Shown one piece after another: positions 34,612 through 57,605 of a stretch of DNA of 64,000 nt (positions are counted from its first letter, which is position 1; every line of letters begins with the position of its first letter). The stretch comes from an uncultured Glaciecola sp. (lineage in GTDB: Bacteria > Pseudomonadota > Gammaproteobacteria > Enterobacterales > Alteromonadaceae). The stretch spans positions 124,001-188,000 of the forward strand of contig NZ_CALJHY010000002.1 in assembly GCF_937770335.1 (NCBI RefSeq), given 5' to 3'. The notes beneath the pieces were generated by a model. The model worked only from the letters and a program-made list of their open reading frames with translations, searched no databases and was not told the origin of the DNA. A program made the translations under genes and the position numbers.

Positions 34612-34616
34612 ATTTT

Positions 34617-36827: not shown

Positions 36828-36835
36828 AGGGTAAC

Positions 36836-42341: not shown

Positions 42342-42394
42342 CGCTATTATTTAGCCAATAATTGTTATATATAACGAAATACTACCACTCTTAT

Positions 42395-42433
42395 CTTAAG
42401 ATTGGCTGAATTATTGCTGAATAAAAACTTATG
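42395..42433 (-). promoter_or_regulatory. PmrA-box-like array A (before the DUF5916 gene)
   Basis: On the plus strand: CTTAAG, CTGAAT, CTGAAT and a weaker CTTATG, each separated by exactly 5 bp (11-bp period). Read toward the gene these are CTTMAG-class direct repeats like E. coli PmrA/BasR boxes (CTTAAG-N5-CTTAAG). Confidence 0.72.
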
Positions 42434-42474
42434 CAGATGAACGCTACCGTAGCCGCATATGTGCACCTACCTGC

Positions 42475-42870
42475 CTATAAGAAGCAAATGCCAATCCATG
42501 TTAACGCTGCTAAAACGAGGCTGATTGAAACGGCGGCGGAGCCTAAATCCTTTGCTAAACCAGACAGCGGATTTAGTTCTACGCCAATCCTGTCTACAAC
42601 TACCTCGATTGCGGTATTAATTATTTCTACTAACATGACGAAAAGTACAGTCGCTATTAAAATCAACTGCTCTGTGGGTGAAGCGTCAATGACAAAGGTA
42701 ACGGGTATAGCAATGAGTAATGCAAGGGCTTCTTGCCTAAATGCGGATTCATTTTTTATTAGCCATTTAATGGCTCTGGCTGAGTTTTTTACGGCCAGAT
42801 AAAGCCGTAGTAAACCTTTTGGTTTCGCGTTCACATTAAACGTTGAGTTTGTTGATGTTTCATTCTGCAT
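42475..42870 (-). CDS. dgkA: Diacylglycerol kinase
   Basis: Small trimeric membrane kinase (about 131 aa, three helices). Signatures AIKWLIKNESAFRQE, VEIINTAIEVVVDRIG and AKDLGSAAVSIS match DgkA. I choose the ATG at 42870, overlapping the eptA stop by 11 nt; a TTG at 42888 is the alternative. EptA uses phosphatidylethanolamine and releases diacylglycerol, which DgkA recycles to phosphatidate, so the operon pairing makes biochemical sense. Confidence 0.95.
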   Translation of the reverse strand: MQNETSTNSTFNVNAKPKGLLRLYLAVKNSARAIKWLIKNESAFRQEALALLIAIPVTFVIDASPTEQLILIATVLFVMLVEIINTAIEVVVDRIGVELNPLSGLAKDLGSAAVSISLVLAALTWIGICFL

Positions 42871-44524
42871 AGGTGTCTCTATTTGCAAGGTTATGAGTCT
42901 GTCGGCAAAGGCTTAAGACATCTTGTTTAGCGTTATAAGCGCTTGTATCAACAGACTGCATACCAAGCAGGATGTCAAAGAAGTTATCATGCGATATCGC
43001 TTGAGCGGAAATGGTATCAAGGCACTCTTGACTAACGATTTCATTTTGCTTGTTTTGCCAAAACAGCATCGGCACATGCGTTTGCTCTTTCGGTGCAAAC
43101 GCATAGGGCAAGCCATGCAAATATATGCCATTTTCACCCAATGATTCACCATGGTCAGAAATATAAAGCATCGCGGTATTCACTTGCTTACTATCAGACA
43201 AAGTTTGCAATCGTTGCGTAATTTTCGCTAATACAAAGTCAGTATATAAAATCGTATTGTCATAAGTGTTTATTAATTCTTCGGTAGTACAATGCTGTAT
43301 ATCACTGCGCTGACAATCGGGCGTAAAGGCTCGGTGTTCTAGTGGATAGCGCCGGAAATAGGTAGGGCCATGTGAGCCCATCATGTGCAAAACGATGAGC
43401 GTATTTTTATCTGACTGTACTAAAAGTTGTTCATCTAGATATTCAAGTAAAATTTCATCTATACAATATTCTCCATCACACAATGGACTTGACATATTTT
43501 CATCAATGACGATTGACTCGACTCTTGCACATACGCCTTTGCAGCCTCCGTTATTGTTATCAATCCAAGTTACGTTAGTACCTGATAATTGTATGATATC
43601 CAGCACATTTTGCTGAGAGCTCGCAACATATTTATCATAGTTTTGTTTATTCAAACGAGAGAACATACACGGTACTGAAACCGCAGTAGCGGTGCCGCAT
43701 GAAGAAACATTGGAGAATGAAACAACATTTGCGCCTTGAGTGTATTTATTGGTGGTTTTATCGTAGCCATTTAGCGAGAAGTTTTTGGCTCTTGCTGTTT
43801 CTCCGAGCACGACGACAGTGATGCTTCTTTTTGCTTGTTTATTAACTAAGATTGGCTTTGCGTCAAGCAAGTGAAATTCCCGAGGCGAATTATTTAGGGC
43901 ATGTTTGACGTATTTATAAGAAGATTCATATAATTTAAAGGGAGTTATGTACGATGATAGTTCTCGATTATTTCTGCCAACAGCCGCGTAGTTTACGTAA
44001 AATAAACCCACTAATATAGATAGAAATAGTGTGACAATAACGACCATTTTCAACCACCCAAAAGCACCTCTAACAATTGAATGCTCTGCTATTTGAGCGT
44101 AGTAAATTAAGCTAGAGGGCAAAAGTCCAAAGAATACAAAAAATAGGACTGCATACAAATTGAAATAAGACATTGCCTCTGCATGGTCAGTGTCTATGGT
44201 ATTTTGGATCATGCCATAATCAAAAATTATACCGTAATGATAAGTGCCATAAAACAAAAGCGATGAGAGACATACAGACGCAATCAACATCGGTTTAAGC
44301 AACCGTTTAAAGGCAAAAAGGCTATGAAAGAGAACGGTCAATAGAAATAGAATCACTGGTACTGACACTAAAAACCAAATATTATAGTTACCATTTTCAG
44401 TTACTGCCTTCCACACTTTAGTGAAAAATGGCAGATTAAGTACTAGTGCTATGTACGCTGATGTAAAAAGTATCAGTTGATTTGTGCTAAATGAACGGTT
44501 TCGGATAGTGTTGAGTAATTTCAT
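42860..44524 (-). CDS. eptA: Lipid A phosphoethanolamine transferase
   Basis: 554 aa: five N-terminal membrane helices, then a periplasmic alkaline-phosphatase-fold domain. The zinc/catalytic set is complete: E in GETARAKNFS (near 241), nucleophile T in SCGTATAVSVPCMFS (near 279), GSHGP, SDHGES (near 457) and YLHG, plus the paired cysteines. It transfers phosphoethanolamine to lipid A, giving polymyxin resistance. It lies 12 nt behind the Omp85 gene and overlaps dgkA. Confidence 0.94.
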   Translation of the reverse strand: MKLLNTIRNRSFSTNQLILFTSAYIALVLNLPFFTKVWKAVTENGNYNIWFLVSVPVILFLLTVLFHSLFAFKRLLKPMLIASVCLSSLLFYGTYHYGIIFDYGMIQNTIDTDHAEAMSYFNLYAVLFFVFFGLLPSSLIYYAQIAEHSIVRGAFGWLKMVVIVTLFLSILVGLFYVNYAAVGRNNRELSSYITPFKLYESSYKYVKHALNNSPREFHLLDAKPILVNKQAKRSITVVVLGETARAKNFSLNGYDKTTNKYTQGANVVSFSNVSSCGTATAVSVPCMFSRLNKQNYDKYVASSQQNVLDIIQLSGTNVTWIDNNNGGCKGVCARVESIVIDENMSSPLCDGEYCIDEILLEYLDEQLLVQSDKNTLIVLHMMGSHGPTYFRRYPLEHRAFTPDCQRSDIQHCTTEELINTYDNTILYTDFVLAKITQRLQTLSDSKQVNTAMLYISDHGESLGENGIYLHGLPYAFAPKEQTHVPMLFWQNKQNEIVSQECLDTISAQAISHDNFFDILLGMQSVDTSAYNAKQDVLSLCRQTHNLANRDTYAE

Positions 44525-44536
44525 TATTTTAGTAAC

Positions 44537-46150
44537 TTAGAACGAATGTTTTGTGGTGATGCGAAACTCAATACCGTTTACGTTGGTGTCAGTAGAGAGC
44601 GGTTTGACTAAATCAAGGTGAATAACCTGAGCATCACTGGAGTGAGTTGAGTAAAAACGAGCGCCAATACCTACTGATGCCAAAACCGAGGTGTTAACGT
44701 TGGCCACGGGACTATTACCAAATGCCTTCCCTGCATCGATAAAAGCAGCGCCTCCCAGTTCAAACAGTTTGTAAATATTTATGTGAGGGTAGTAACGAGC
44801 CTCCAAAGTAAATTGCGTTGTTCTTTCTCCATGCTGATAATTCAATGGATACCCGCGCACACCAGAGTCATCGCCCAAGGCGACAGGTGAGTCTAAAAAG
44901 GGATGTTTACTTATCGTATTGACATTTTTAAAGTAGCCTCCCCAATTGTCATTAAACTTGTGAAAGTATTCGGTAGAAAAAGATAATTGCGTTCTGTCTT
45001 TACTGTCCGAATTTGAAATACGCTCGCCTTCAAAATGACCGTCAAAAAACAAAAAACCGTTGTCCGATGTTTGCAGACCCTTTGAGAAAGACATTTGCCA
45101 TATAACAGCGGGGGATTGCATGGTATTTGCAAAGTCTCTGCCGATTAATCCAGATACATGCCACCCTAAGTTAAAATCTTCAATTTGGTTAATGAGATTG
45201 AAGTTAGTTAGCTTTCGATAGTTTTTTTGTAGGTAGTCGATGCTGACGAAAGGGTATTGATAGTCTCTGTCTTCAGGTAAAAAACCAGATGACGCGATTG
45301 TAGGCAAAAGTATTTTTGAGAATTGGTGTTTTTCTCTTATATAACCTATACCGTATCGTAAGGTTTCGTTGTCTGAATCGCTAAACAACCATTGCCATTG
45401 CGCAGTAGAATAAGATTTATCATGCTTATACTCCGCTACCGTCAACCCGTTTTGAAATTGACTATCAATTTGATTGAAGTTATCAAAACCCACTTTATAA
45501 GCTTGGCTAGTATCAAAACTAACAAAGTCTTTCTTTAAGAAAAATGCTTGAGAGCTACCATCATCATTACTGCTAAGTTTAATACTCGCAGTCATATTTT
45601 CGTTCAGGAAAAGCGGGAATTGTGTGTCGAATTTGTAGCCAGTTCGTTGGTTATTACTAAAATATTCAAGTTCAGCGTCAATGCCTAAGCCTAGCAAGTT
45701 GCGGTCTTTTATCCCTATCGCGTATTTGTTTATCCCTCCCTTTCTTCCAAAGTCCACCGTTGGCATGAGCGACCAATTATCCCATGTTTCAACGTCTATT
45801 TTTTCGTCTTCACCTAGGGTTACCTTTGCTTCGCGGATGTATTTTTGATTGCGTAAATGGCGCTCTAGTTCGTCAATGTCGGGCTGAGTGATGTTGCACT
45901 TTTTAATAAAGAATGCACTTTCATTGGCTAACGTTATGTCTTTTGTTTTTATATGAAAAAAATTCGCCCAATAATGCAGAAATATTGCGTCGGAGTCGTC
46001 TAAATCAAAAATATCATTAGTCTTAAAACGCACGTTGGGCGTTTGATCACATTCATTATCATTTGCATCGTTGCCAGCTAATGCAATTTGGGGAACGCAA
46101 ATACATGACGCTAATAAAATAATAGGGAAAATTTTAGGATTCATATACAT
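44537..46150 (-). CDS. Omp85/BamA-like outer-membrane protein with a POTRA-like domain
   Basis: 537 aa with a signal peptide (cleavage near IALAG, 26). One POTRA-like segment (about 90-140: TQPDIDELERHLRNQKYIREAKV) precedes a 16-strand-type barrel; the Omp85 loop-6 motif is GVRGYPLNY (near 430). Surface-antigen (bacterial D15) family, shorter than BamA or TamA. First gene of the operon with eptA and dgkA, so a role in the modified envelope is likely but unknown. PmrA-like repeats lie 35-73 bp upstream. Confidence 0.82.
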   Translation of the reverse strand: MYMNPKIFPIILLASCICVPQIALAGNDANDNECDQTPNVRFKTNDIFDLDDSDAIFLHYWANFFHIKTKDITLANESAFFIKKCNITQPDIDELERHLRNQKYIREAKVTLGEDEKIDVETWDNWSLMPTVDFGRKGGINKYAIGIKDRNLLGLGIDAELEYFSNNQRTGYKFDTQFPLFLNENMTASIKLSSNDDGSSQAFFLKKDFVSFDTSQAYKVGFDNFNQIDSQFQNGLTVAEYKHDKSYSTAQWQWLFSDSDNETLRYGIGYIREKHQFSKILLPTIASSGFLPEDRDYQYPFVSIDYLQKNYRKLTNFNLINQIEDFNLGWHVSGLIGRDFANTMQSPAVIWQMSFSKGLQTSDNGFLFFDGHFEGERISNSDSKDRTQLSFSTEYFHKFNDNWGGYFKNVNTISKHPFLDSPVALGDDSGVRGYPLNYQHGERTTQFTLEARYYPHINIYKLFELGGAAFIDAGKAFGNSPVANVNTSVLASVGIGARFYSTHSSDAQVIHLDLVKPLSTDTNVNGIEFRITTKHSF

Positions 46151-46184
46151 ACCTTGTTAAGTGCATGTATAGTAGTAAATGAAC

Positions 46185-46223
46185 CTTAAGAACAGCTTAC
46201 TGTGTACTGATTGTTTACTTAAT
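46185..46223 (-). promoter_or_regulatory. PmrA-box-like array B (before the Omp85-eptA-dgkA operon)
   Basis: Plus-strand hexamers CTTAAG, CTTACT, CTGATT, CTTAAT at exact 11-bp steps. One perfect and three degenerate half-sites, ending about 35 bp from the Omp85 start codon. Confidence 0.62.
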
Positions 46224-46263
46224 ATTGGCTATAGATTTACCAAAAGAGGGGAGTTGTTTAGCA

Positions 46264-47016
46264 CTATTCAATATCTTGTTTGTGATAACGTCGATATTCA
46301 AAAATTAAGGCCAACGTTAACACGACGAAAAAGAAAATTGATGCCCCAATAGTCCCGATGTCAATGCCGCCTTGCTGATGTGTTTTAGTTAAAAAGTCAC
46401 CAAAGGTTGCGCCAAATGGCCGCGTCAGCACAAATGCAATCCAAAATATTAATAAGCCTGTTACTCGAGTGAAATAATGCAGAAGCACACACATGATAAG
46501 TAAACTGGCAATAATTGTTGCACTAATTGCAAATCCCATTTGCAAGTCGTCGGCAACATAGTCACCTAATGCGGTCCCTAATGTATTAGCAACCAAAAAT
46601 GCGATCCAATAATATAATTCCACAGAAGGCTTAGTGATCACTTCTACCGACAAGGTTTTTTCTTTCCAATACCAAAACCCTAATATTAGTAGCAGCAAAC
46701 TTGTTAACAGTAATGAGCCAAATAGATATCCGAATCCTAGCGTGCGATCAATATAGTCCGATATGGCAGTACCTGCGATAGCGCTTGATGTGAACGTCAG
46801 CCAATACAGGCCAGGTGTATATCGGGCTTGTTTCAATTTACATATTAATGCTACAGCGAAAATTGAAAGAAAAAGAATGATGGTCAAGTCGTACCCGATA
46901 TTTAGCGTCATTGAGAAAAGATCTGCACCGGTTTCACCAAGCGTTGTTGCCGCTATTTTGATTATCCAGTACAACGCGATAATTTGAGGCACTGTATTAT
47001 TCAGCTTTGTCTGCAT
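46264..47016 (-). CDS. COG4705-type multi-pass membrane protein
   Basis: 250 aa, about eight membrane helices arranged as four copies of a two-helix unit. Each unit carries a related motif: TTLGETGADL, GTAISDYIDRTLGFGY, LGTALGDYVADDLQMGF and FGATFGDFL. The repeated G-D pairs in membranes suggest ion binding. Function of COG4705 is not established. It has its own PmrA-like repeat array upstream. Confidence 0.78.
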   Translation of the reverse strand: MQTKLNNTVPQIIALYWIIKIAATTLGETGADLFSMTLNIGYDLTIILFLSIFAVALICKLKQARYTPGLYWLTFTSSAIAGTAISDYIDRTLGFGYLFGSLLLTSLLLLILGFWYWKEKTLSVEVITKPSVELYYWIAFLVANTLGTALGDYVADDLQMGFAISATIIASLLIMCVLLHYFTRVTGLLIFWIAFVLTRPFGATFGDFLTKTHQQGGIDIGTIGASIFFFVVLTLALIFEYRRYHKQDIE

Positions 47017-47097
47017 TTTTTGCTCTCCAACAAAAGTAGGCTAATTTAAATCGAGGGCTTTAGTCGATTCTCTTTGTAGTTAGTATAAGAACTTGGT

Positions 47098-47136
47098 CTT
47101 AAGAAATGCTGGAGAGAGACTTAATGAGTGCTGAAG
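47098..47136 (-). promoter_or_regulatory. PmrA-box-like array C (before the COG4705 gene)
   Basis: Plus-strand hexamers CTTAAG, CTGGAG, CTTAAT, CTGAAG, each separated by 5 bp. Four half-sites in perfect 11-bp phase, 82 bp upstream of the start codon. Confidence 0.68.
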
Positions 47137-47170
47137 GTGGTAACGTTTTTATTAATAAAGCATAGTTGAG

Positions 47171-47554
47171 TTAAGCGTTATATAAATCAAAAAGCCATCC
47201 CATGAAAATCCATACGACAAAAAACCATATAATTATAAAAATTGATGCGGCTATATAACTTACTGGTTTATTAGTAGCTTGACCTGCTTTTAGTCGAGCA
47301 GACTCTATTACTTTCGGCGGGGTAAAACGGATAACAAGCGCCAATCCGAGAGGAATAATAACTAGGTCATCAAGATATCCGATAACTGGAATAAAGTCAG
47401 GTATCAGATCGATAGGACTAAATGCATACGCCGCCACTGTAATCGCCAATAATCGCACAAACATGGGCATATCTGGATCACGTGCAGCAAAATATACAGT
47501 CAGTGTATGAAGCTTTAACTTTCTTATCTGTTCTTTTAATGAATTGATATTCAT
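47171..47554 (-). CDS. DUF1232 (YkvA-like) membrane protein
   Basis: 127 aa. The hallmark AYAFSPIDLIPDFIPVIGYLDDLVIIPLGL is at about residues 41-71 and a second membrane helix at about 100-122. Family of small inner-membrane proteins of unknown role. Same strand as the two-component genes upstream, with 136 bp in between and no clear PmrA-like array of its own. Confidence 0.88.
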   Translation of the reverse strand: MNINSLKEQIRKLKLHTLTVYFAARDPDMPMFVRLLAITVAAYAFSPIDLIPDFIPVIGYLDDLVIIPLGLALVIRFTPPKVIESARLKAGQATNKPVSYIAASIFIIIWFFVVWIFMGWLFDLYNA

Positions 47555-47690
47555 ACAAACTTTACCGTTTATCTGTTCGACCTTACATTGTCGAAAAACT
47601 GGCCTCCTACATCAACATAGCAGTGTTTAGTTAGACTAACACCTTCTACAATCAGGCTAATTCTTAGAACTTATCCAAAATAAGTGGACG

Positions 47691-49109
47691 CTATTGAGGA
47701 AGTGATAGGCGAAAATGGATTATATCATCTTCCATTTCAGCTCTTATTTCTCCTCCAAGTGCTTTGGTAAAAGACTTGACAATTGATAGTCCTAAGCCAA
47801 AATTTTGGGTGCTGGTTCGCGAGCAATCTTTTTGCCAAAGGGGGTCAAACATAAGCTGAAGATCCTCATTGCATAAAAGTGAGGCGCAAACGTTGCTAAT
47901 AGATAGTTGAATAACTTTATCAGCTAAAGCGGCTATATCAACCTTGATGGGTGAGTTTTCAGGGCTATACGTCACGGCATTTTTCAATAAATTAGATGCG
48001 ATAGTTTCAAATGCAAAGAGATTGCTAGTAATTAACATATCGGCTTGGCTTTTCAATTGAATCTGCGGCATTTTTTCGCCCAGACGCGCTATTACTTGCG
48101 AAAGATCGAATACATCATTCCTTTCGAAAGTCTTGTTAGTGTAGCGATGAAAAAGCATGATGTTTGACACAACGTTTTCAAGTCGTTTGCCAATGGCTAA
48201 CACGTCAGGCGTAAACGTTTTGCTCAATGTTGGGTCGTTTGGAAATTTGAGTGTTACCTCGGCTAAACTAATTAGCTCTGCAACCGGCGTTTTAAGCTCG
48301 TGAGCCATATCCGATGTCATTCTCTGCTCTTTGAGATAAAGCTTTCGGTTATCAGAAATAAATAGATTAATACTGTCTTGTATGGGCAAAAGCTCTACCA
48401 CCTTGTTCTTAAGTGTCACTTCTGCTGTTTTGTCGGCCAGACTAATATGTATTAAGCTTTCCGAAAATTCTTCCAGGGGTCTTAATCCAGAGGAAACTGC
48501 GCGTTTAACCACAAAACGAACAATGATAACAACCGTGATGGCAGCGACTATAAAACTAATATCAATTAGCCATGTTAAAAAGTTAAGTTTCTCAAGTGAT
48601 AAGGCATAAGCCAGTAGCATGGGTTTTTGTTCGTTTCCGGTGCGCTCAGTAAGCCTTTGAAAATCAGCTCTGTCATCAGAATCAACTTGAGGAAAAAAAC
48701 TATAGTAGAGAATTTGTCCACTGCGCCCATCGGGAAGGATGATTTCCTTAATGAGTTTAGTACCTACTATAAGCTTCTGATGTTCAAAGGTTGTTGTTGA
48801 AAACAAATCCATGGTGTCGGAACGCTCAAACACCTCTCCACTGCGCCAGAGTTGATAATATTCGGGGTCGGCTTTTCCTTTGCCCTCAAACTCAGGCATA
48901 AATTCGCCCGCAAAATCGAATTCTACTCCTCCGGCATCTTCGTCAACTAATGTCGTCAGCAAACTAGCCTTATTGTACATCGCTCTTTCAAACTCGCCAT
49001 GCACCCAAGTATCTATAGCAACATCTGTTATTAGCAATATGACAATCATTACAGTCGTAATAGTAAATGACAGGGAGCGCTCGAGTTTTTTATAAATTGA
49101 TGTTGTCAT
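47691..49109 (-). CDS. Sensor histidine kinase (PmrB/QseC-like)
   Basis: 472 aa: N-terminal membrane helix, a periplasmic sensor domain (about 35-185), a second helix (about 187-207), then HisKA with DMAHELKTPVAELISL (histidine near 270) and an HATPase domain (NLLKNAVTYSPENS, FGLGLSIVKSFTKALGG). The sensor has acidic clusters (DEDAGGVEFDFAGEF, DSDDRADF) that could bind Fe3+, Al3+ or cationic peptides as in PmrB. It overlaps the response regulator gene by 4 nt. Confidence 0.92.
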   Translation of the reverse strand: MTTSIYKKLERSLSFTITTVMIVILLITDVAIDTWVHGEFERAMYNKASLLTTLVDEDAGGVEFDFAGEFMPEFEGKGKADPEYYQLWRSGEVFERSDTMDLFSTTTFEHQKLIVGTKLIKEIILPDGRSGQILYYSFFPQVDSDDRADFQRLTERTGNEQKPMLLAYALSLEKLNFLTWLIDISFIVAAITVVIIVRFVVKRAVSSGLRPLEEFSESLIHISLADKTAEVTLKNKVVELLPIQDSINLFISDNRKLYLKEQRMTSDMAHELKTPVAELISLAEVTLKFPNDPTLSKTFTPDVLAIGKRLENVVSNIMLFHRYTNKTFERNDVFDLSQVIARLGEKMPQIQLKSQADMLITSNLFAFETIASNLLKNAVTYSPENSPIKVDIAALADKVIQLSISNVCASLLCNEDLQLMFDPLWQKDCSRTSTQNFGLGLSIVKSFTKALGGEIRAEMEDDIIHFRLSLPQ

Positions 49110-49777
49110 GGGGTTATCATATAGCCAAAACCGCGTTTAGTTTGAATAGGAAGTTCTACGCCTGCCAATTTCGCCTTCTTTCTAGCCGACGACAGATGCG
49201 CTTCGATAGAGTTCTTTGAAACTGCATCATACTGTCCAGCTAAGTGTTCACTCAACTTTTCAGGTGTGACGATTGTGTTTTGGTTAGTGAATAAGCATTC
49301 TACTATTTTGTATTCATTGGGTGTTAGGTCGATAAATTTGTTACCGAATCGCAATGTTTTAAGTTGCATATCTAATATTAATCCAGCCAGTTCTACTTTA
49401 TCAATATCTTTACGCAATGTACCTCTGCGCAATAACGACAATAAGCGTGCATGCAGTTCGTCAAAGGAAAACGGCTTGGTAAGATAATCATCAGCGCCTG
49501 TTAGTAAGCCTTTCACTTTATCTTCAGCCTGGCTTTTAGCTGATAGCAAAAGCACTCGTGTATCTTTGTGACTACTCCTAAGGGTTTTTAATACCGTAAG
49601 CCCATCAATGCTTGGAAGCATAATGTCCAATATAACAACATCATAATCGCCTGTAAGCGCCATGCTGAGCCCTTCTGATCCATCTGAAGTCTGATCTACC
49701 GTAAACCCAAGGTTTTGCAAGCCAATAGAGATACTTCTTCTTAATGATGATGAATCTTCAACTAGTAAAACTTTCAT
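49106..49777 (-). CDS. OmpR-family response regulator (PmrA/QseB-like)
   Basis: 223 aa: receiver domain with the acidic pocket at LLVEDSS, phospho-acceptor in YDVVILDIMLPSIDG (near 51), lysine in YLTKPFSFDE; C-terminal winged helix with IDLTPNEYKIVECL and RGFGYMI. First gene of the two-component operon. Its promoter carries a perfect CTTAAG-N5-CTTAAG, so it probably regulates itself and the seven similar promoters around it. Confidence 0.94.
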   Translation of the reverse strand: MKVLLVEDSSSLRRSISIGLQNLGFTVDQTSDGSEGLSMALTGDYDVVILDIMLPSIDGLTVLKTLRSSHKDTRVLLLSAKSQAEDKVKGLLTGADDYLTKPFSFDELHARLLSLLRRGTLRKDIDKVELAGLILDMQLKTLRFGNKFIDLTPNEYKIVECLFTNQNTIVTPEKLSEHLAGQYDAVSKNSIEAHLSSARKKAKLAGVELPIQTKRGFGYMITP

Positions 49778-49821
49778 AATTACCTGATGCTGTTAAATTT
49801 TCAATAGTATGAATGAGCTAA

Positions 49822-49849
49822 CTTAAGAACTGCTTAAGAAATACTGAAT
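49822..49849 (-). promoter_or_regulatory. PmrA-box-like array D (before the two-component operon)
   Basis: CTTAAG (49822-49827), CTTAAG (49833-49838) and CTGAAT (49844-49849) with 5-bp spacers. The first pair is an exact match to the published enterobacterial PmrA box. It ends 45 bp before the response-regulator start. Confidence 0.85.
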
Positions 49850-49983
49850 TTTTTCCAAGTTTGACAATATTACCCTTATATCAAGTTTACGTCATAATGA
49901 CTAAGGAAATACGATTTAACAGGGAAGTCACTCAAACTATTTTGTCGACATTAATTTACTTTTCTTCCATTTAGGGGATTTAC

Positions 49984-50751
49984 TTATTTATCCACTTTTA
50001 CGCTAGATGCGACTAAAGTAGCTTGCGCATCACCATCGTTTTTTTGCTCTATTTTAATCGGTAAAAACTGTCTATTCATATCAAACCATATTGACGTTTC
50101 TCTCGAATTTGTTTTTCGAGTTCGCACCATCAGTATGGCGTCCGCACTGCCTATTGGTAATTGCAGTGATTCTTGGCCTTTGAATGAAAATTGAAAATTT
50201 TCTGTGTTTTGACCGTCCTGTACTTTTAGCTCAACATCTTCTCGAAGGCCCAAGCAAACCAGCTCTCTCAAATGATCATATACAGTTAGTGGGTCGAAAA
50301 TCGGACTTGAAAGATCATCGTCAACGCTGTTGGTTTGCAAAATTGAAAAGCTAGTCGTCTTTACCTTCTTAAACGGTTTTTTCTTTACTTGTGTGTATTC
50401 CTCTGGGACTAAGCCTTTTAATTGATAGTTGGGTAGGATACTTTTTTCACTTTGTGAAAACTGGAGAAAAGCGATTGAGGCGTCAATGCGCGAATATAGA
50501 CTAGTTACACCATCAATAGAACTTAACACTCGCTTTGCATCGCCTGCTTTTCTTTCCCCATCTTTAACCTCATATTCAACATCGTAATGACCTAATCTGC
50601 AATCTGAAAGGGTATGCATGTTTGAAATAGATCCTTGCGCAAAGCTAGTCTGCTCTGCCTGAACGTAATTTGCTATAGTTTTGTTAGTCAAAATGAACAA
50701 CAAAAAGAAACATAATAGTACCAGTTTGCAATGGGCTAAGGTTATCTTCAT
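49984..50751 (-). CDS. DUF3108-like periplasmic protein
   Basis: 255 aa with a signal peptide (cleavage near TIANY, 28). The layout of a beta-rich protein with YDVEYEVKDGERKAG, SPIFDPLTVYDHLREL and IWFDMNRQFLPIKIE resembles DUF3108 family proteins of unknown function. It follows the EptA-like paralogue with a 26-nt gap, so the two are one operon under array E. Confidence 0.72.
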   Translation of the reverse strand: MKITLAHCKLVLLCFFLLFILTNKTIANYVQAEQTSFAQGSISNMHTLSDCRLGHYDVEYEVKDGERKAGDAKRVLSSIDGVTSLYSRIDASIAFLQFSQSEKSILPNYQLKGLVPEEYTQVKKKPFKKVKTTSFSILQTNSVDDDLSSPIFDPLTVYDHLRELVCLGLREDVELKVQDGQNTENFQFSFKGQESLQLPIGSADAILMVRTRKTNSRETSIWFDMNRQFLPIKIEQKNDGDAQATLVASSVKVDK

Positions 50752-50777
50752 ATAATGTACTCAGTTATTAAAATAAA

Positions 50778-52400
50778 CTAATACAGCATGGCTTTTTCAA
50801 TCGCCTGTGATTTGCATAAATAGCCTATATCAAACTCCGGTGAATAGGTCTTTGAACGTATATGAAAATACCCCAGCAAGGTATGAGAAACGAAATCATG
50901 GCTAAGCTTCCCGTTGAGCATCGATAAACAGTCGCCTGGTAAGTTATCATCAACAATGAGTAGTGGTACTAGTAATTGCTCTGATGGTGCCACTGCTTTA
51001 GGTGAACCATGAAAATAAAGCCCTTTTTCACCAAGCGATTCACCATATTTTGCAGTAAAAATTAGAGAGGTATTGGTGTTAGGATAGGTAGCATGAAACT
51101 GATCAATTCGCGAATTAGCTTGCGCCAATACAAATTTCATATAATCAACGGCATTTTGGTAACTGTTCACTAACTCAACGTTATTACAATTAGCCACAAG
51201 TAGGGTTTTGCATTCAGGAATGTGAGTAGAAAATTCATTTGGGTAGAACCGTGAATACAAGGGGGAGCCTATATTTTGGGTCTGAATAACAATTAATTTA
51301 GGTGCTTTGGGGGCAATTGCGTTGTGCAAAACATCAACGAGTAAGGTATTGATCAATTCGTGATCGTAACACTGTTTATTTTTGCATTGTAAGCGACGTT
51401 CATAAACATTCGCTCTTTTACAGAGTTCGCCACAGGACTCATGGTGTGAAAGCCAAAAGATATTTACCCCAGACAGCGCCAGTATATCCAATACATTTTG
51501 TTGATGACTAGCTTGTTGGTCGGTAAATTCAGCGAGAGACAGAAATGAGAACATACATTGAATCGACGATTGAGCATAGGTGTCGCAAGCAGATAAGGAA
51601 CTTTTTTGTCCAGTATGTTGCTCAAACGAAAGTAAATTATCTTTTGTAAACGCGTCAGCGCGAATAGATTGTCCAACAATTAGTACTACTGTCGTGTGTT
51701 CATTTTTATCAATGAGAGATGGGGCGTTATCGAGGATCGCAAAACTATGCACAGGTTCAAAGTATTGATGCTGGACATACTTAATTGAGCTGTCAATGAA
51801 ATGCATTGGGATAACGTCAACCAGTGCGCTTCGCATAGAATGATAATACGGCTTGATTTTATCTTGCGTTAATTGATGTATCGAGAACAGTGAAAAACAT
51901 ACTAAACCAATAGCAGCCAATGTTTTTATAATATGACGTTTAGTGGTGTCGTATTGAATATTTATCACCGATAAAAGAATGGATGGTAATAAAAATAGAA
52001 AAATAAATTGTAAAGCAAAAGTCAGAGTTAAAAAGCGACCAATGCCGTCTAACCACTGACTCAGTTCAAAGGCCCATGGATTGTACTGCTTTCCGGTACT
52101 ATTGCTATACAGCAAAATGGTGGAAATAAAAAACGTCAACATAAGTGCGGGTTTAAAGATGGGTTTGATGTTTATGCACAATACTAGCAATAGATTTAAC
52201 AACAGCAAGTATATTGCTACCCCTGTGAGTAATGCAATAACCTCCATACTTTTATTACCCGTTCCATGCCAAATCGTATTTAAAAATGGCAGGTTATAGG
52301 CAAGCAATAGCCAAAGCGCAAGCAAGGCATTTAGTTTGTATATCGAAAATGTTTGGCTTCTAAACGTAACAACATCGCCAAGACGCATTTGTTTTAGCAT
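50778..52400 (-). CDS. EptA-like protein lacking the zinc-site residues (probable pseudoenzyme)
   Basis: About 540 aa with the EptA layout of five membrane helices and a periplasmic domain. The active-site positions are changed: GETAR is GQSIR (near 243), CGTAT is CDTYA, GSHGP is IGSPL and SDHGES is AKYGES (near 450). All ten cysteines and the EKGLYFHG stretch remain, so the fold is kept. It cannot be a normal zinc phosphoethanolamine transferase. A TTG at 52445 would start inside the promoter array, so the ATG at 52400 is used, which also aligns with EptA. Confidence 0.85.
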   Translation of the reverse strand: MLKQMRLGDVVTFRSQTFSIYKLNALLALWLLLAYNLPFLNTIWHGTGNKSMEVIALLTGVAIYLLLLNLLLVLCINIKPIFKPALMLTFFISTILLYSNSTGKQYNPWAFELSQWLDGIGRFLTLTFALQFIFLFLLPSILLSVINIQYDTTKRHIIKTLAAIGLVCFSLFSIHQLTQDKIKPYYHSMRSALVDVIPMHFIDSSIKYVQHQYFEPVHSFAILDNAPSLIDKNEHTTVVLIVGQSIRADAFTKDNLLSFEQHTGQKSSLSACDTYAQSSIQCMFSFLSLAEFTDQQASHQQNVLDILALSGVNIFWLSHHESCGELCKRANVYERRLQCKNKQCYDHELINTLLVDVLHNAIAPKAPKLIVIQTQNIGSPLYSRFYPNEFSTHIPECKTLLVANCNNVELVNSYQNAVDYMKFVLAQANSRIDQFHATYPNTNTSLIFTAKYGESLGEKGLYFHGSPKAVAPSEQLLVPLLIVDDNLPGDCLSMLNGKLSHDFVSHTLLGYFHIRSKTYSPEFDIGYLCKSQAIEKAMLY

Positions 52401-52446
52401 AAATAAATTAATTGAATGTGTTAGTTGAGGATTATAGGCTTTCAAA

Positions 52447-52474
52447 CTTAAGGTTTATTGAAGACAGTCTTAAG
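52447..52474 (-). promoter_or_regulatory. PmrA-box-like array E (before the EptA-like pseudoenzyme)
   Basis: CTTAAG, TTGAAG, CTTAAG on the plus strand at exact 11-bp steps; the outer two are perfect. It ends 47 bp from the start codon at 52400. Confidence 0.78.
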
Positions 52475-52522
52475 TATTGGCTTGGTATATCTGAAATTTA
52501 ATTGAATAAAATTACAGCTAAA

Positions 52523-52550
52523 CTTCAATATTACTTCAGCGATTCTTAAG
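52523..52550 (+). promoter_or_regulatory. PmrA-box-like array F (before the glycosyltransferase operon)
   Basis: CTTCAA, CTTCAG, CTTAAG with 5-bp spacers, in the plus orientation facing the GtrB-like gene, 52 bp upstream of its ATG. It is the divergent partner of array E in the same intergenic region. Confidence 0.78.
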
Positions 52551-52602
52551 TCTATTGCTAGAAGATGACCAACGTCCGAACTCAACATAAATATTGGTAT
52601 CT

Positions 52603-53625
52603 ATGATCAGTTACAAAAATGCAATGAACCTGCGAAATAAAACGCTTTCGGTGTTGGTGCCGGTATACAATGAAAGCTGCGTGATTGAGGAATTCATGTC
52701 GCGCTTGCAACAGACTTTTAAAAGCCTTCAGTGCAAGACTGAAATAGTTTTTGTGGATGATGGCAGTACTGATAACACTATTGATAAAATTTATGCTGGT
52801 CCACCAATCGCCGACACAAAGAAGTTGATAAAACTGAGTCGTAATTTTGGTAAAGAGGCGGCTTTGTGCGCCGGACTTAAATCGGTATCCGGTGATGCAG
52901 TGATTATATTGGACGCTGATTTGCAGGATCCACCAGAGCTCATTCCTGGCATGTTAGTAACATGGCAGCAGGGTATTGACGTGGTCAACATGTGCAGAGC
53001 CAAGCGAGACGGTGAGTCATGGTTTAAAAAATTAAGTGCAAAGTGTTTTTATCGACTTTTAAATTGGTTGTCTGACACGCCTATTCCTGAAAATGTAGGT
53101 GACTTTAGATTAATTAGTCGAAATGTTATTGATGTTATCAACTCAATGCCTGAAAAAAACGTTTATATGAAAGGAATATTATCTTGGCCTGGCTTCACTA
53201 CTAAAACGCTATTTTTTGACCGTGACGCAAGGGTAAGTGGCGAATCTAAATGGCCGTTTATCAAGTTAGTTAAACTTGCAATTGACGGTATTACCGCATT
53301 TAGCACCAAACCTTTGCAAATTGCTACTTGGATGGGCGCTATAATTGCCAGTAGCGCTTTAATTTATAGTCTTTACATTGTCGTTAGAACGCTATTACTG
53401 GGCAACACTGTCGCTGGATTCCCGACGCTAATTGTGACAATTTTAGCACTAGGGGGCTTTCAGTTATTAACGGTTGGTATTATGGGCGCCTATATTGGGC
53501 GTATCTATATAGAAGTTAAAAATCGCCCTCGATACGTCGTGCAAGAAGAAATTTCACAAAGCAAGAGTGCAGCTTCTGTGCAAGGCATTAGCACCTCTAA
53601 AGTTGCGGTTATCAATGCTAAATAG
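52603..53625 (+). CDS. GT2 polyprenyl-phosphate glycosyltransferase (GtrB/ArnC-like)
   Basis: About 340 aa. Catalytic domain with SVLVPVYNE, FVDDGSTDNT and LDADLQDPPELI (DXD), then two C-terminal membrane helices (about 240-305). It transfers a sugar from a nucleotide donor to undecaprenyl phosphate on the inner face. The ATG at 52603 is preferred over an upstream TTG at 52594. It overlaps the next gene by 11 nt; with GT39 and GtrA it forms a complete sugar-flipping set, as in Arn or Gtr systems. Confidence 0.9.
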   Translation: MISYKNAMNLRNKTLSVLVPVYNESCVIEEFMSRLQQTFKSLQCKTEIVFVDDGSTDNTIDKIYAGPPIADTKKLIKLSRNFGKEAALCAGLKSVSGDAVIILDADLQDPPELIPGMLVTWQQGIDVVNMCRAKRDGESWFKKLSAKCFYRLLNWLSDTPIPENVGDFRLISRNVIDVINSMPEKNVYMKGILSWPGFTTKTLFFDRDARVSGESKWPFIKLVKLAIDGITAFSTKPLQIATWMGAIIASSALIYSLYIVVRTLLLGNTVAGFPTLIVTILALGGFQLLTVGIMGAYIGRIYIEVKNRPRYVVQEEISQSKSAASVQGISTSKVAVINAK

Positions 53626-55000
53626 AATTCATCCCATTTGGTTTTTGATTGCGGGCATTCTGTTATTTCGCTTAGTATCACTTTCCTTATACCCCCTTAT
53701 CGACACAACGGAGGCTCGCTATGGCGAAATGGCCCGTATAATGTGGGAAACACAAAATTGGATCACGCCACAATTTGATTACAATGTTCCATTTTGGGGT
53801 AAGCCTCCCTTACATACCTGGGCGAGTGCCGCATTTGGCGGTATCTTAGGCATTTCTGAGTTTTCATTACGCTTACCTCATCTCTTGGTAGGAATGATTA
53901 CTTTGTTTGTTATGGGTGTTTTTGCGAAACGCTTCTCCATATCCCCATCCCTGGTTACTCTAGTGCTTGTATCGACCCTAGGGTTTTTCGTTGCCAGTGG
54001 TATGATTATGACGGATGCATTTTTGTTACTAGGCATGACAATGGCAATGGCTGGCTTTGCAGTTGCTTGGCGAGATAATTCGAACAGTTATGCCTATTTA
54101 GGCTTCGTTGGAATAGGAATTGGATTACTCGCAAAAGGACCTATCATTCTAGTGCTGATTGGCCTAGCGATAGCGCCATGGTTAGTATTAAATTATGGTT
54201 TGATTACTGGTATTAAAACCTTCTATCGGAAAATCCCACTATTCAAAGGTAGCCTGCTTACCTTAGCTATTTCGCTACCGTGGTATCTACTTGCAGAAAA
54301 TAAAACTCCGGGATTCCTTAACTACTTTATTATTGGCGAGCACTTTCTGCGTTTTGTTCAAAGTGGTTGGGAAGGGGATTTATATGGTACAGCGCACAGT
54401 GAACCAAGGGGTATTATTTGGATTTACTGGCTAGTCGTCGCATTTCCTTGGTCGATTTACTTTGCGGTTTTGGTTGTTGTTAAGAAATATAGAACAGCCT
54501 TAAGCCAGCATCAATTTAATTTCTATCTTCCCAGTTATTTAATGTGTTGGCTTATTAGTCCGATGTTGTTATTCACTATGTCGGGTAATATTCTTCCTAT
54601 CTATGTATTGCCTGGCATTCCTGCATTATCACTTCTCATTGCCATTATGATTAAACATATACGGTTTAGTGTGGTGATCACAAGTTTACTCACGCCAATA
54701 TTGATGGTGGTTTTCATGGTAGTGCAACTTCCTAACCTAGCAAATGAAAAAAGCGACAAAGCATTACTAGCAAATATTGAAAGTGACTTTGGTTTGTACT
54801 ACTTAGGCAAAAGAAGTTTTTCAGGCCGATTTTATACTTCAGGAAAGGCTATCAACATAGCGTCAATTGAAGAGTTGCGAACGGTAGAATCACCGTTTTA
54901 TCTCGTGGTTGAACAAAGCGAAATTTCTTCATTAGTGGATTCGAGAGATTGTGAGACGCTTTCTCACAATAAACGCAAGAGACTGCTACTATGCAAATAA
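53615..55000 (+). CDS. GT39 family membrane glycosyltransferase (ArnT-like)
   Basis: About 461 aa with around 11 membrane helices. The ArnT/PMT signature DTTEARYGEMARIM (about 25-38) and WGKPPLHTW are present in the first periplasmic loop. It would move a sugar from undecaprenyl phosphate onto lipid A or another periplasmic acceptor. ATG at 53615 overlaps the GtrB-like stop; a longer frame exists but has no support. It overlaps the gtrA-like gene by 10 nt. Confidence 0.88.
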   Translation: MLNRIHPIWFLIAGILLFRLVSLSLYPLIDTTEARYGEMARIMWETQNWITPQFDYNVPFWGKPPLHTWASAAFGGILGISEFSLRLPHLLVGMITLFVMGVFAKRFSISPSLVTLVLVSTLGFFVASGMIMTDAFLLLGMTMAMAGFAVAWRDNSNSYAYLGFVGIGIGLLAKGPIILVLIGLAIAPWLVLNYGLITGIKTFYRKIPLFKGSLLTLAISLPWYLLAENKTPGFLNYFIIGEHFLRFVQSGWEGDLYGTAHSEPRGIIWIYWLVVAFPWSIYFAVLVVVKKYRTALSQHQFNFYLPSYLMCWLISPMLLFTMSGNILPIYVLPGIPALSLLIAIMIKHIRFSVVITSLLTPILMVVFMVVQLPNLANEKSDKALLANIESDFGLYYLGKRSFSGRFYTSGKAINIASIEELRTVESPFYLVVEQSEISSLVDSRDCETLSHNKRKRLLLCK

Positions 55001-55386
55001 AGATGAAGATAAAATTTCTATTTGTCGGGGGGGTAGCATTTCTAGTTGATGCATCGTTTTACTTATTATTAACAAACGTTTTGTCTCTATCACCTTTGAG
55101 TGCCAGAGTAGTAGCTTTTGCCATCGCAGTGTTTGTTACATGCACAGGGAATAGGCTTCTGACCTTCTCAATGCGAAATCACGCTGCGTTTTATAAACAG
55201 TTCGGATTAGCTTTAGTAGCCGGCTTGATATCGTTAATACCTAATCTAGCCGTGTTTTTAGGTTTACTCTTTGTTTTACCTACTACTATTGGTTTTGAGT
55301 TAATAGCCTTTATGAGCGGCACAATAGCAGGGATTGTCTCAAATTACATTTTGAGTGATCGGTTTGTGTTTTCAGAATGCGGGTAA
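54991..55386 (+). CDS. GtrA-like flippase
   Basis: 131 aa, four membrane helices, with the GtrA N-terminal pattern FLFVGGVAFLVDASFYLLL and the central GNRLLTF. It probably flips the undecaprenyl-phosphate-linked sugar made by the GtrB-like enzyme. Last gene of the three-gene operon. Confidence 0.86.
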   Translation: MQIKMKIKFLFVGGVAFLVDASFYLLLTNVLSLSPLSARVVAFAIAVFVTCTGNRLLTFSMRNHAAFYKQFGLALVAGLISLIPNLAVFLGLLFVLPTTIGFELIAFMSGTIAGIVSNYILSDRFVFSECG

Positions 55387-55443
55387 CTTTAGTTGAGTTA
55401 CATCGTTGCGCCAAAAACGTCTTACCACTGCCGTTATTGCCAT

Positions 55444-55473
55444 TGTAAGCGACCTCAAGAAGGTCACTTTACA
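55444..55473. terminator. Imperfect hairpin between convergent operons
   Basis: TGTAAGCGACCT (55444-55455) pairs with AGGTCACTTTACA, with small mismatches. It lies between the GtrA-like stop and the end of the LTA-synthase-like gene and could end transcripts from both sides; the T tract is weak. Confidence 0.4.
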
Positions 55474-55543
55474 TGCCCTATAAAGCGATGCGTTGCCGGT
55501 AGTCTACCAATCACTGCTTAAAACACAAAAAATGTTTGTGCCT

Positions 55544-57517
55544 CTATTTCTCGTTCTCAAGTCTAAACCATTCATTGTCATAAGCTAAGCTCCCAAAAAG
55601 TGCATGAGCTAACGCTATTTCACCAAGTTGGCCATTTTCAACTCCAACTTCCAATAGTTTGCTCTTTCGATTAAACGTGTAATATTTAGGAGGTTTGCTA
55701 GGTTGTAAAATAGCGACTTCTTCATTTGTCATGTAAGCAAAGTTTTTATCAAACTGCATCATTGCGCGTTCAGGCACATTACTCTGTGTTAAGTCATGGC
55801 CTAGCATTGGGTAATAGTCGTCAATACCCATCAATGATAATAGTGTAGGTGCAAGGTCTATTTGACTAACAAGCCTGTCATCTTGTCTAGGCACGATGTC
55901 TTTACCTAAAATAACACCTGGAATATGGAATGATTTAATGGGCACCAATTCAGGGCCATAAACACGCGCGTCATGATCGGCTACTACCAAAAAAATTGTA
56001 TCATCCCAATAGTCTGATTGTTTAGCCTTTTTAATAAAGTTCCCTAATGCGTAGTCAGCATAGCGGATGGCTCTATCTCTATCGTCTTCTGAGTCAATTA
56101 CGGGCACAATACCTTGTGGGATATCAAATGGGTCATGGTTGCTAGAGGTGAACACCAAACTGAAAAAAGGTTTTCCTGTTTTGTGCATAGCCGATAATTC
56201 AGTGTGCGCTTGATTAAAGAGGCTTTGATCACACGCCCCCCAAGACCCGACATAAGCAGGGTCTTTTATTTGATCGCCATCGACAATATCTTTGAAGCCA
56301 TTACCAAGGAAAAAGCTTTTCATATTATCGAAATGACTTTCGCCACCATAAATAAATTGAGTTTCATAGTTGTGGCGAGACAAGAGGCTAGCAATCGTGA
56401 AAAAATCTCGTTGCGACTTATCTAATTTGACAACAGATCGAGCAGGCGTTGGCGTAAAGCCAGTAATAACCGCTTCTATGCCTCTCACGGAGCGGGTACC
56501 TGTTGCATACAATCGGTCGAATGACCAACCAGAAGCTATAATTTCATCAAGGTTAGGCGTAATTCCACTGCCTCCTAAACTCCCAACAAATCGAGCTCCC
56601 AAGCTTTCTTGAAGCACAATTACTAAATTCTTCGGTTTTCCTTTAAAACTGGGGAATTGCTTTCTTAGGGTCGGGATCTGGTCTGAATTAAAGCGATCAA
56701 TAGATACTCCAGTCGATTCACGCACTAATTGTATTACTCTCTCATCACTTAGTTTCCCATATACTTTAGAAGCATGAATTTCACCACCTAATTGTTTCCA
56801 AGCAAAAGCAACACTGTACATTGAATTTAGTGTCAGTGAATTGATTAGCGGATCGGTTGTGAAGTAAACAACCGAAGGGTTAATAGGGCGGTGGCCGAGT
56901 GTGCCGCGGGCACCAACAAACAAGATTAGAACCATCAACACAAAAGAGGCAAGCAAAGTCAGTCGAGGCTTCTCATTTCTCTTTTGTTGTTGTGATAAGA
57001 CAAGCAAGCACTCTTCGTTATTGACGATACGCTTCATTAGTTTCCATATAAACAATGAACTAATGAGAAGCAAAACTATGGTAATTAACACCGGCAATAA
57101 ATGACCTTCCATTAACATGCCAAATACTTCTTTTGGATAAACTAAATATTCAATGAATAGGCGATTAGGGCGAAGGTCGTATTCGTTGATGAATGTGGGC
57201 GTTGCTAGTTCAAAAAACAATACTGATACGGAACAAACGAAAAACCAAAGCCGTAAGACTGACAGCCAAATTTTCGCGAAGGTGGAGTAGAGCATTGCAG
57301 AATGAAGTAGAGCGGGTATGAACAGCAAATATGACAGCGTACTGATATCGATGCGCAAGCCATTGAGCAGCACTAATATAAACGTTGATAAATTATCGAC
57401 TCTTTCATATTGCCAAACTAAGATACCAGCACGAAACAATGAGAGCATTGTGACTATAAAAATAAATAAAAGTAAAAATGGTCTAAATACTCTATATAAG
57501 GCGGTAGCGTTTGACAT
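55544..57517 (-). CDS. LTA synthase/OpgB-like phosphoglycerol or phosphoethanolamine transferase
   Basis: About 657 aa: five N-terminal membrane helices and a C-terminal sulfatase-fold domain with NLVIVLQESLGARFVGSLG, YATGTRSVRGIEAV (nucleophile threonine region), SSNHDPFDIP and VVADHDARVYG. LTA synthase family; in Gram-negative bacteria these decorate periplasmic glucans or lipid A. The ATG at 57517 (MSNATALYRV) is chosen over 57559, which would extend into the promoter. An array of four PmrA-like repeats sits 50-88 bp upstream. Confidence 0.86.
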   Translation of the reverse strand: MSNATALYRVFRPFLLLFIFIVTMLSLFRAGILVWQYERVDNLSTFILVLLNGLRIDISTLSYLLFIPALLHSAMLYSTFAKIWLSVLRLWFFVCSVSVLFFELATPTFINEYDLRPNRLFIEYLVYPKEVFGMLMEGHLLPVLITIVLLLISSLFIWKLMKRIVNNEECLLVLSQQQKRNEKPRLTLLASFVLMVLILFVGARGTLGHRPINPSVVYFTTDPLINSLTLNSMYSVAFAWKQLGGEIHASKVYGKLSDERVIQLVRESTGVSIDRFNSDQIPTLRKQFPSFKGKPKNLVIVLQESLGARFVGSLGGSGITPNLDEIIASGWSFDRLYATGTRSVRGIEAVITGFTPTPARSVVKLDKSQRDFFTIASLLSRHNYETQFIYGGESHFDNMKSFFLGNGFKDIVDGDQIKDPAYVGSWGACDQSLFNQAHTELSAMHKTGKPFFSLVFTSSNHDPFDIPQGIVPVIDSEDDRDRAIRYADYALGNFIKKAKQSDYWDDTIFLVVADHDARVYGPELVPIKSFHIPGVILGKDIVPRQDDRLVSQIDLAPTLLSLMGIDDYYPMLGHDLTQSNVPERAMMQFDKNFAYMTNEEVAILQPSKPPKYYTFNRKSKLLEVGVENGQLGEIALAHALFGSLAYDNEWFRLENEK

Positions 57518-57566
57518 GCATGTTCTATTTGTACAGTTAAATGAACACAGATAATACAAAAGTGAA

Positions 57567-57605
57567 CTTAAGAGCAGCTGAAGAAAGCTTTAAGATAGGC
57601 TGAAC
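57567..57605 (-). promoter_or_regulatory. PmrA-box-like array G (before the LTA-synthase-like gene)
   Basis: Plus-strand hexamers CTTAAG, CTGAAG, TTTAAG and CTGAAC, all separated by 5 bp, giving four half-sites at exact 11-bp phase. Confidence 0.76.

Follow-up and report, generated by a model that had tools for sequence, protein, structure and literature searches.

Arrays of CTTAAG-type half-sites as candidate operators of a local OmpR/PhoB-family response regulator in a putative surface-remodelling island of an uncultured Glaciecola sp.

The DNA analysed here, called the window, is a stretch of 64,000 nucleotides from an uncultured Glaciecola sp. (contig NZ_CALJHY010000002.1), in which seven transcription units between 42395 and 57605 begin behind runs of CTTAAG-type hexamers stepped by 11 bp. 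With a probability of roughly three in four, these arrays are the operators of the response regulator (RR) encoded in their midst, an activator of the OmpR/PhoB family other than PmrA that would run a surface-remodelling regulon. The sites, their geometry, their conservation and their association with the RR were read directly from the genomes compared. An earlier note on this DNA had proposed a local PmrA-like regulon with multi-site head-to-tail operators; genome specificity, conservation and geometry support such a regulon well, and its autoregulation too, except that the regulator is not PmrA by membership. The arrays, listed with their half-sites in order towards the gene, and the regulatory genes are the following.

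Array A, 42395..42433, minus strand: CATAAG, ATTCAG, ATTCAG, CTTAAG; -10 TAGTAT at 42379-42384; precedes the DUF5916 gene 40101-42341.
Array B (weak), 46185..46223, minus strand: ATTAAG, AATCAG, AGTAAG, CTTAAG; -10 TACTAT at 46169-46174; precedes the unit of the 537-aa gene, EptA and DgkA.
Array C, 47098..47136, minus strand: CTTCAG, ATTAAG, CTCCAG, CTTAAG; -10 TATACT at 47082-47087; precedes the DUF347 gene.
Array D, 49822..49849, minus strand: ATTCAG, CTTAAG, CTTAAG; -10-like CATACT at gap 10 or TACTAT at gap 12; precedes the genes of the RR and its histidine kinase (HK).
Array E, 52447..52474, minus strand: CTTAAG, CTTCAA, CTTAAG; -10 TATAAT at 52431-52436; precedes the second EptA-like gene.
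Array F, 52523..52550, plus strand: CTTCAA, CTTCAG, CTTAAG; weak -10, GAAGAT at gap 10; precedes GT2-GT39-GtrA.
Array G, 57567..57605, minus strand: GTTCAG, CTTAAA, CTTCAG, CTTAAG; -10 TATTAT at 57551-57556; precedes the LtaS-like gene.
RR, 49106..49777, minus strand: OmpR/PhoB-family response regulator (Pfam Response_reg and Trans_reg_C), forming a separate clade; the protein presumed to bind the arrays.
HK, 47691..49109, minus strand: sensor histidine kinase (Pfam).

All seven arrays of the earlier note are present in 11-bp register, each aimed at the gene that it precedes. The distances to the start codon also agree with those given there: the last CTTAAG and the first in-frame ATG are 34-53 bases apart (A 53, B 34, D 44, E 46, F 52, G 49), or 81 in C. 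Since CTTAAG is its own reverse complement, it gives no direction, which comes from the sites with C at position 4; every window array holds at least one such non-palindromic site directed to its gene. Compared with a three-site pattern made of repeated CTTMAG-N5, arrays A, C, D, E, F and G are strict, that is, they have at most 2 mismatches; B (AATCAG/AGTAAG/CTTAAG) has 4 and is a weak member of the claimed set, to which its -10 and a matching layout in the same-genus genome G008 lend support. The counts of three or four half-sites per array were also recovered, A, B, C and G having a fourth site that matches in at least five of the six positions (2, 2 and 4 of 6 in D, E and F). The arrays thus share with the PmrA box the CTTAAG-type hexamers, the 5-bp spacer and the direct repeat, and differ from a box of two half-sites by their three or four sites, the third of which is conserved. 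The "perfect enterobacterial PmrA box" announced before the RR reads CTTAAG-N5-CTTAAG. The Salmonella box is CTTAAG-N5-XTTAAT (PMC3973317) and E. coli K-12 has CTTAAG-N5-CTTAAT at eptA and CTTAAG-N5-GTTAAT at arnB, so that the window's version is near-perfect rather than perfect.

The arrays are not scattered at random through the 3.85-Mb genome, which was scanned with the three-site pattern, the reversed pattern being used as control. At up to 2 mismatches, 15 strand hits were obtained at eight places and none with the control. Six of the eight are A, C, D, E, F and G; the others are C2:357685, which precedes the gene of a second response regulator (RR2), and C2:342868, which adjoins a redoxin-DUF3570-ApbE gene run and is likelier to be two sites with TATACT 10 bp on. 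At up to 3 mismatches, 13 further places appeared, about the control level (8 strand hits). Exact pairs lie at 8 genome places, namely D, F, G, both outside loci and three others; these three, inside open reading frames, were rejected as further operators. In the window itself, 15 pairs with at most 1 mismatch were observed against 0.70 expected, the largest of 100 shuffles giving 4. Among genomes of the family, the 10 with the RR (the present one and G008, which keeps a remnant, included) average 6.0 strand hits and the 61 others 1.5, with 0.6 and 0.5 for the reversed control, a noisy count per genome. Of the hit loci, 38 were sampled, mainly in genomes that lack the RR, and 28 of these fall inside open reading frames as defined by a simple rule.

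The distance to the -10 region is fixed. TANNNT was found exactly 10 bp after the last CTTAAG in 28 of the 38 strict arrays, and never at gaps 9 and 11. These 38 arrays, from the window and relatives, are a subset of 51 hand-picked ones, some of which were chosen using the -10 and which include near relatives (e.g. L069, L070, L075), so that the counts are not independent. Five window arrays have such a hexamer at gap 10 (TAGTAT, TACTAT, TATACT, TATAAT and TATTAT). When the gap-10 hexamer is taken as the -10, site 3, the last, spans roughly -28 to -23, with site 2 at -39 to -34 and site 1 at -50 to -45; the operator would then lie over the -35 at a fixed step from the -10, which is the layout of a class II activator. 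The same gap is seen in E. coli K-12 at arnB, which we take to be the pbgP of the PmrA papers (CTTAAG-N5-GTTAAT-N10-TAAAAT, third site absent with 2 of 6), and eptA reads CTTAAG-N5-CTTAAT-N10-GAGCAT. In the 51 arrays, whose selection used all three sites and leaned on site 3, site 3 is nearly always CTTAAG and sites 1 and 2 are mostly [AC]TT[AC]AG (mean match 5.92/6 for site 3, 5.24/6 for site 2 and 4.94/6 for site 1); the positions within an array are not equivalent.

The association between arrays and RR was followed at eptA loci, in two sets of 30 taken from 53 and 48 matches, the RR being scored by genome in the first set and by neighbourhood in the second. Among the matches listed, the eptA locus contains an array in 13/15 cases with the RR clade and in 3/45 without it (Fisher p 1e-8, uncorrected for kinship), which by set corresponds to 10/11 and 3/4 with the clade and to 3/19 and 0/26 without. 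Arrays of neighbouring units are counted (L208, L209, L211, L213, L217), L226, with 4 mismatches, was entered as an array without RR, L209 of G008 was scored RR-positive with only a remnant of the RR-HK operon, and a two-site box of G019 outside its locus L216 was left uncounted; with it, the figure would be 4/45. In the first set the sole miss is L210, a locus cut off within the operon, so that its promoter is not seen. Relatives of the RR were taken from the named genomes and from further genomes, at most 25 candidates being scored per genome, so that absence of the RR there is not proof. Because of this limited candidate list, separate searches were made for the HK sensor in 22 genomes and for the DNA-binding domain in 8, the genomes of 9 of the 19 RR-negative loci of the first set lying outside these searches. 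The HK sensor was detected in 11 of the 12 genomes that have the RR or a remnant of it, G055 being the exception, and in none of the 10 that have neither. G008 (L175, L203) keeps array A, array B and the RR promoter array, with only fragments of HK, DUF1232 and DUF347 between the places of RR and DUF347, an apparent loss of that stretch. Two other eptA loci, L220 and L221, have a neighbouring regulator that resembles RstA or CusR (37% and 34% against the E. coli counterparts), and eptA may thus have come under several regulator clades.

The RR belongs to the OmpR/PhoB family by its Response_reg and Trans_reg_C domains and by a phospho-acceptor Asp aligned with D51 of BasR. Against the NCBIfam PmrA model NF007928 it reaches 152.7 bits for a cut-off of 330, and this is only its sixth-best model, since those for cztR, CtrA, PhoB, RppA and TctD score equal or higher, all below their cut-offs. 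In a tree of 48 regulators, the RR falls in its own clade of 24 rows (100/99), apart from BasR, QseB and PhoP, while RR2 groups with BasR and QseB; within the RR clade, the arrays go with an inner set of 21 (100/99). The recognition helix is near-invariant, KN[STAC][IL]E[AS]H[LI]S[SA] in 18/20 rows (RN in L048 and L083), and unlike TNTLEVHIHN of E. coli BasR. PmrA by descent was consequently rejected on the score, the separate clade and the different helix. The label "PmrA-like" holds for the workings, that is, the 11-bp repeats, the 10 bp to the -10 and the EptA and DgkA targets, and fails for membership. The base-reading residues of PmrA are N188, N196 and R210 (PMC4660055) and H193 and H195 (PMC3973317), of which N188, H193 and R210 are retained in the RR. 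As for the HK, it gives 54.7 bits against the NCBIfam PmrB model NF008025 (cut-off 314). By eye, about 140 residues separate two hydrophobic stretches in it. An acidic GEFMPEF-type motif in the sensor is kept in most of 13 aligned homologues, and the sensor could bind cations.

Several observations weigh against control of the arrays by the RR. The RR has serine at both H195 and N196, two positions at which PmrA contacts bases. Arrays D and F have no clean -10 at gap 10 (CATACT in D, with TACTAT two bases on; GAAGAT in F). No strict array was found in L048, L083 and L084, the outer rows at the base of the clade, nor a good array before the RR of L076, nor, by the rule used, any array in L311, which has an RR (49%); a further EptA gene of the genome itself (G000:C1:40159-41790, 54%) is without array at up to 2 mismatches. 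Conversely, three sites precede the LtaS-like gene in G017 and eptA in G047, and G019 carries a two-site box before the 537-aa gene, with GATAAT at gap 10, and no copy of RR or kinase was detected in these three genomes. Finally, the gene of RR2 (C2:356976-357638; L032 3474-4139), a member of the BasR/QseB clade encoded 183 kb away from the local RR, is itself preceded by an array, CTTCAT/CTTAAG/CTTAAG, which TAGTAT follows at 10 bp.

This last observation raises the question of RR2, the nearest PmrA kin found in the genome, as the protein bound to the window arrays, either by itself or competing with the local RR. Besides the box at its own promoter, RR2 keeps the PmrA contact residues N188, H193, H195, N196 and R210, and boxes occur together with an RR2 homologue of 52-57% identity in G017, G047, G019 and G008, genomes with no local RR detected or with only a remnant of its operon. 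We nevertheless consider control by RR2 unlikely, because the third site matches in 5 of 6 positions at the RR2 locus of this genome and in 0 to 3 of 6 at 13 others, of which five show a clear pair (CTTAAG, CTTAAT, CTTAAC or ATTAAG, then CTTAAG or TTTAAG) and eight none, those of G047 and G019 among the eight; moreover, the arrays at eptA track the local RR clade, in the proportions given above, and RR2 lies far from it. No EptA island was seen in the 9 kb around RR2. The RR2 gene is followed by HK and cupredoxin genes, and the redoxin-DUF3570-ApbE run, 15 kb off (L031 4869-4896), shares CTTAAG-type boxes; the two loci possibly form a second regulon.

Assignment to the local RR is in agreement with the conservation of the arrays. 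The strict pattern gives 56 strand hits in 32 loci with a closer RR (328,638 bases) and 1 in 61 loci with a distant RR (940,217 bases), the first set being redundant (L036 is the window itself) and the second unmatched in base composition. In relatives, arrays precede RR, LtaS-like, EptA, 537-aa/EptA/DgkA, GT2 and other units. The three sites of array A recur in G008; E has a counterpart in L067, F has counterparts in L067 and L202, G has them before LtaS-like genes, and D is conserved before RR orthologues. In a second island, from another genus (G044, L202), the gene set recurs and arrays stand before the LtaS-like, GT2, 537-aa/EptA and RR units, and one more lies between DUF5916 and a second EptA-like gene.

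For the third site, 23 regions upstream of RR orthologues were anchored on the best pair alone. The site at -22 then matches in 3.83 of 6 positions, against a background over other offsets of 1.74 (standard deviation 0.49, maximum 2.74), and the match to TATAAT peaks at gap 10. The last pair reaches at least 10 of 12 in 17 regions and not in L076, L077, L078, L045, L046 and L047; L077 and the loci of L045-L047 have their array one gene upstream, in front of eptA, and the contig of L078 is too short to tell whether an array is present. A general fourth site was rejected, as it is not among the eight best offsets when the last two sites are the anchor; its average of 2.69 of 6 in the 51 selected arrays (background 1.74, highest control 2.88) is within the control range, and it is thus a property of some promoters only. 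These data bear on the reading in which only the last two hexamers function, as an ordinary PmrA/PhoB-type box, and the upstream ones are inherited without function. Sites 3 and 2 are indeed better conserved than site 1, the E. coli PmrA boxes have two sites and G019 carries a two-site version; site 1, by contrast, stands above background even when left out of the selection and is found in several families and at non-homologous promoters within one genome, which makes this reading quite improbable. Back-to-back divergent arrays with a start-to-start offset of 47 bp were also seen in L066 (4518/4565), L068 and L069 (both 9881/9928), L070 (9872/9919), L075 (4254/4301), L039 (2219/2266), L043 (2215/2262) and L175 (8092/8139), and of 48 in L038 (1374/1422), the divergent gene being LtaS-like in some and weakly GT2-like in others; the constant offset may reflect common descent or constraint. 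The divergent EptA2/GT2 pairs are offset by 76 and 77 bp (window 52447-52550; L067 7298-7402) and the RR pair of L044 by about 67 bp, so that the 47-bp rule is not general.

An origin of the arrays by chance or by 11-bp tandem duplication of an AT-rich spacer was dropped as practically negligible: CTTAAG is palindromic and readily formed in AT-rich DNA, and G088 does contain 11-bp repeats, with repeated spacers in L200, but the pair and control counts rule chance out, the -10 gap is fixed, every window array has its directed non-palindromic site, and similarity among the spacers of one array is at the chance level (0.33 vs 0.33), so that the arrays are not a minisatellite. The repeats of G088 (in both L199 5346-5384 and L200 5127-5176, four perfect CTTAAG-type sites with an 11-bp step) do look like one, a trap for motif scans.

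On the reading that we prefer, binding, activation, cooperativity and signal would combine as follows. The adjacent kinase would read the signal and the RR become phosphorylated, the phosphorylated form binding head to tail on three half-sites, or four at some promoters, in 11-bp steps. The promoter-proximal pair (about -39 to -23) would replace the -35 element in a class II position, where bound RR could contact sigma-70, as proposed for PmrA and PhoB, and the third site (about -50 to -45) could accommodate a further DNA-binding domain that should sharpen the response. The RR would thereby activate its own operon, EptA, DgkA, the second EptA-like enzyme, the LtaS/MdoB-like transferase and the GT2-PMT-GtrA glycosylation operon, a set that would remodel the cell surface against polymyxin-like peptides. 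The other genes of the island are the following.

DUF5916 protein, 40101..42341, minus strand: Pfam.
DgkA diacylglycerol kinase, 42475..42888, minus strand: PF01219.
EptA-type lipid A phosphoethanolamine transferase, 42860..44524, minus strand: NF028537, 584 bits, cut-off 500.
537-aa protein, 44537..46150, minus strand: no Pfam match; adjoins EptA in many relatives.
DUF347 protein, 46264..47016, minus strand: Pfam.
DUF1232 protein, 47171..47554, minus strand: Pfam; no array seen upstream.
DUF3108 protein, 49984..50751, minus strand: Pfam; no array seen upstream.
Second EptA-like transferase, sulfatase fold, 50778..52445, minus strand: 257 bits, below the cut-off of 500.
GT2 glycosyltransferase, ArnC/PgfS-like, 52594..53625, plus strand: below NCBIfam model cut-offs.
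PMT-type (ArnT-like) glycosyltransferase, 53567..55000, plus strand: ArnT model below cut-off.
GtrA-like membrane protein, 54991..55386, plus strand: profile match.
LtaS/MdoB-like phosphoglycerol transferase, sulfatase fold, 55544..57559, minus strand: below NCBIfam cut-offs.

EptA transfers phosphoethanolamine onto lipid A and DgkA recycles diacylglycerol; the EptA-type enzymes of marine bacteria are kin of the mobile colistin-resistance genes. Beside the island lie three adjacent open reading frames (34030-39913), the last of which (1025 aa) has a phage-integrase domain, and EptA matches occur in only 3/13 same-genus genomes, which together hint at horizontal gain.

In the titles and beginnings of abstracts listed, a search that left most subscription journals outside, no account was found of the RR clade or of a PmrA-type box with a third site, which appear to be what is new here; the same literature says little on how eptA is switched on in bacteria other than enterobacteria and vibrios. 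The arrays provide a sequence rule predicting the regulon in genomes with the RR. They also make a clean test case for the question of why three sites should be required by an activator of the OmpR family, which is dimeric. On balance, the comparison leans towards a distinct, as yet unnamed two-component clade of marine Gammaproteobacteria that uses an operator of three half-sites to control the remodelling of lipid A and the envelope, a route to polymyxin-type defence that would have arisen separately from PmrA with its two sites. Such an operator would be marked by an odd number of 11-bp repeats, a near-invariant proximal CTTAAG 10 bp from the -10 and looser [AC]TT[AC]AG sites upstream, and would raise the question of how dimeric regulators fill three sites.

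Among known systems, the multi-repeat operator itself is not new. ArcA sites consist of three to five direct repeats whose centres are 11 bp apart, some of these sites being suggested to fill cooperatively, and multiple repeats also occur at some OmpR and PhoB promoters (PMC3798270); the arrays thus go beyond the known two-site box, as the earlier note had it, for PmrA and not for the family. ArcA differs in regulator, motif and regulon, and its sites are described as plastic (PMC3798270), whereas the last site of the window arrays is fixed 10 bp from the -10. QseBC and RR2 (L032) have CTTAA-type pairs near the promoter, as in the window, but form a clade separate from the RR, and the third site is not conserved in RR2 kin. 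PmrA (BasR)/PmrB of Salmonella, E. coli and Klebsiella shares with the window the 11-bp head-to-tail CTTAAG-type hexamers, the 10 bp to the -10 (E. coli arnB) and regulator genes that adjoin eptA; it differs by two sites instead of three, by the regulator clade and by contact residues that are partly changed in the RR, and the window HK is below the PmrB model and the upstream sites accept TTCAG. Joint action of dgkA and eptA in colistin resistance is described under RstAB for the Vibrio Harveyi clade and under CarRS for V. vulnificus (PMC12064563, PMC10433830), the two systems being called homologues in PMC12064563. The CarR regulon of V. vulnificus (dgkA-eptA-mdoB, tolCV2 and carRS; PMC10433830) partly resembles the window's set of EptA, DgkA, LtaS-like gene and RR, the likeness lying in a two-component system that controls dgkA-eptA, joined in V. 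vulnificus by mdoB, as well as the regulator genes themselves. The footprint consensus of CarR is GACAN6TACA (PMC10433830), against CTTMAG in the window, a comparison made by published consensus and not by CarR sequence. As far as CarR is known here from published descriptions, comparable sets of targets seem to be controlled by different regulators from one lineage to the next.

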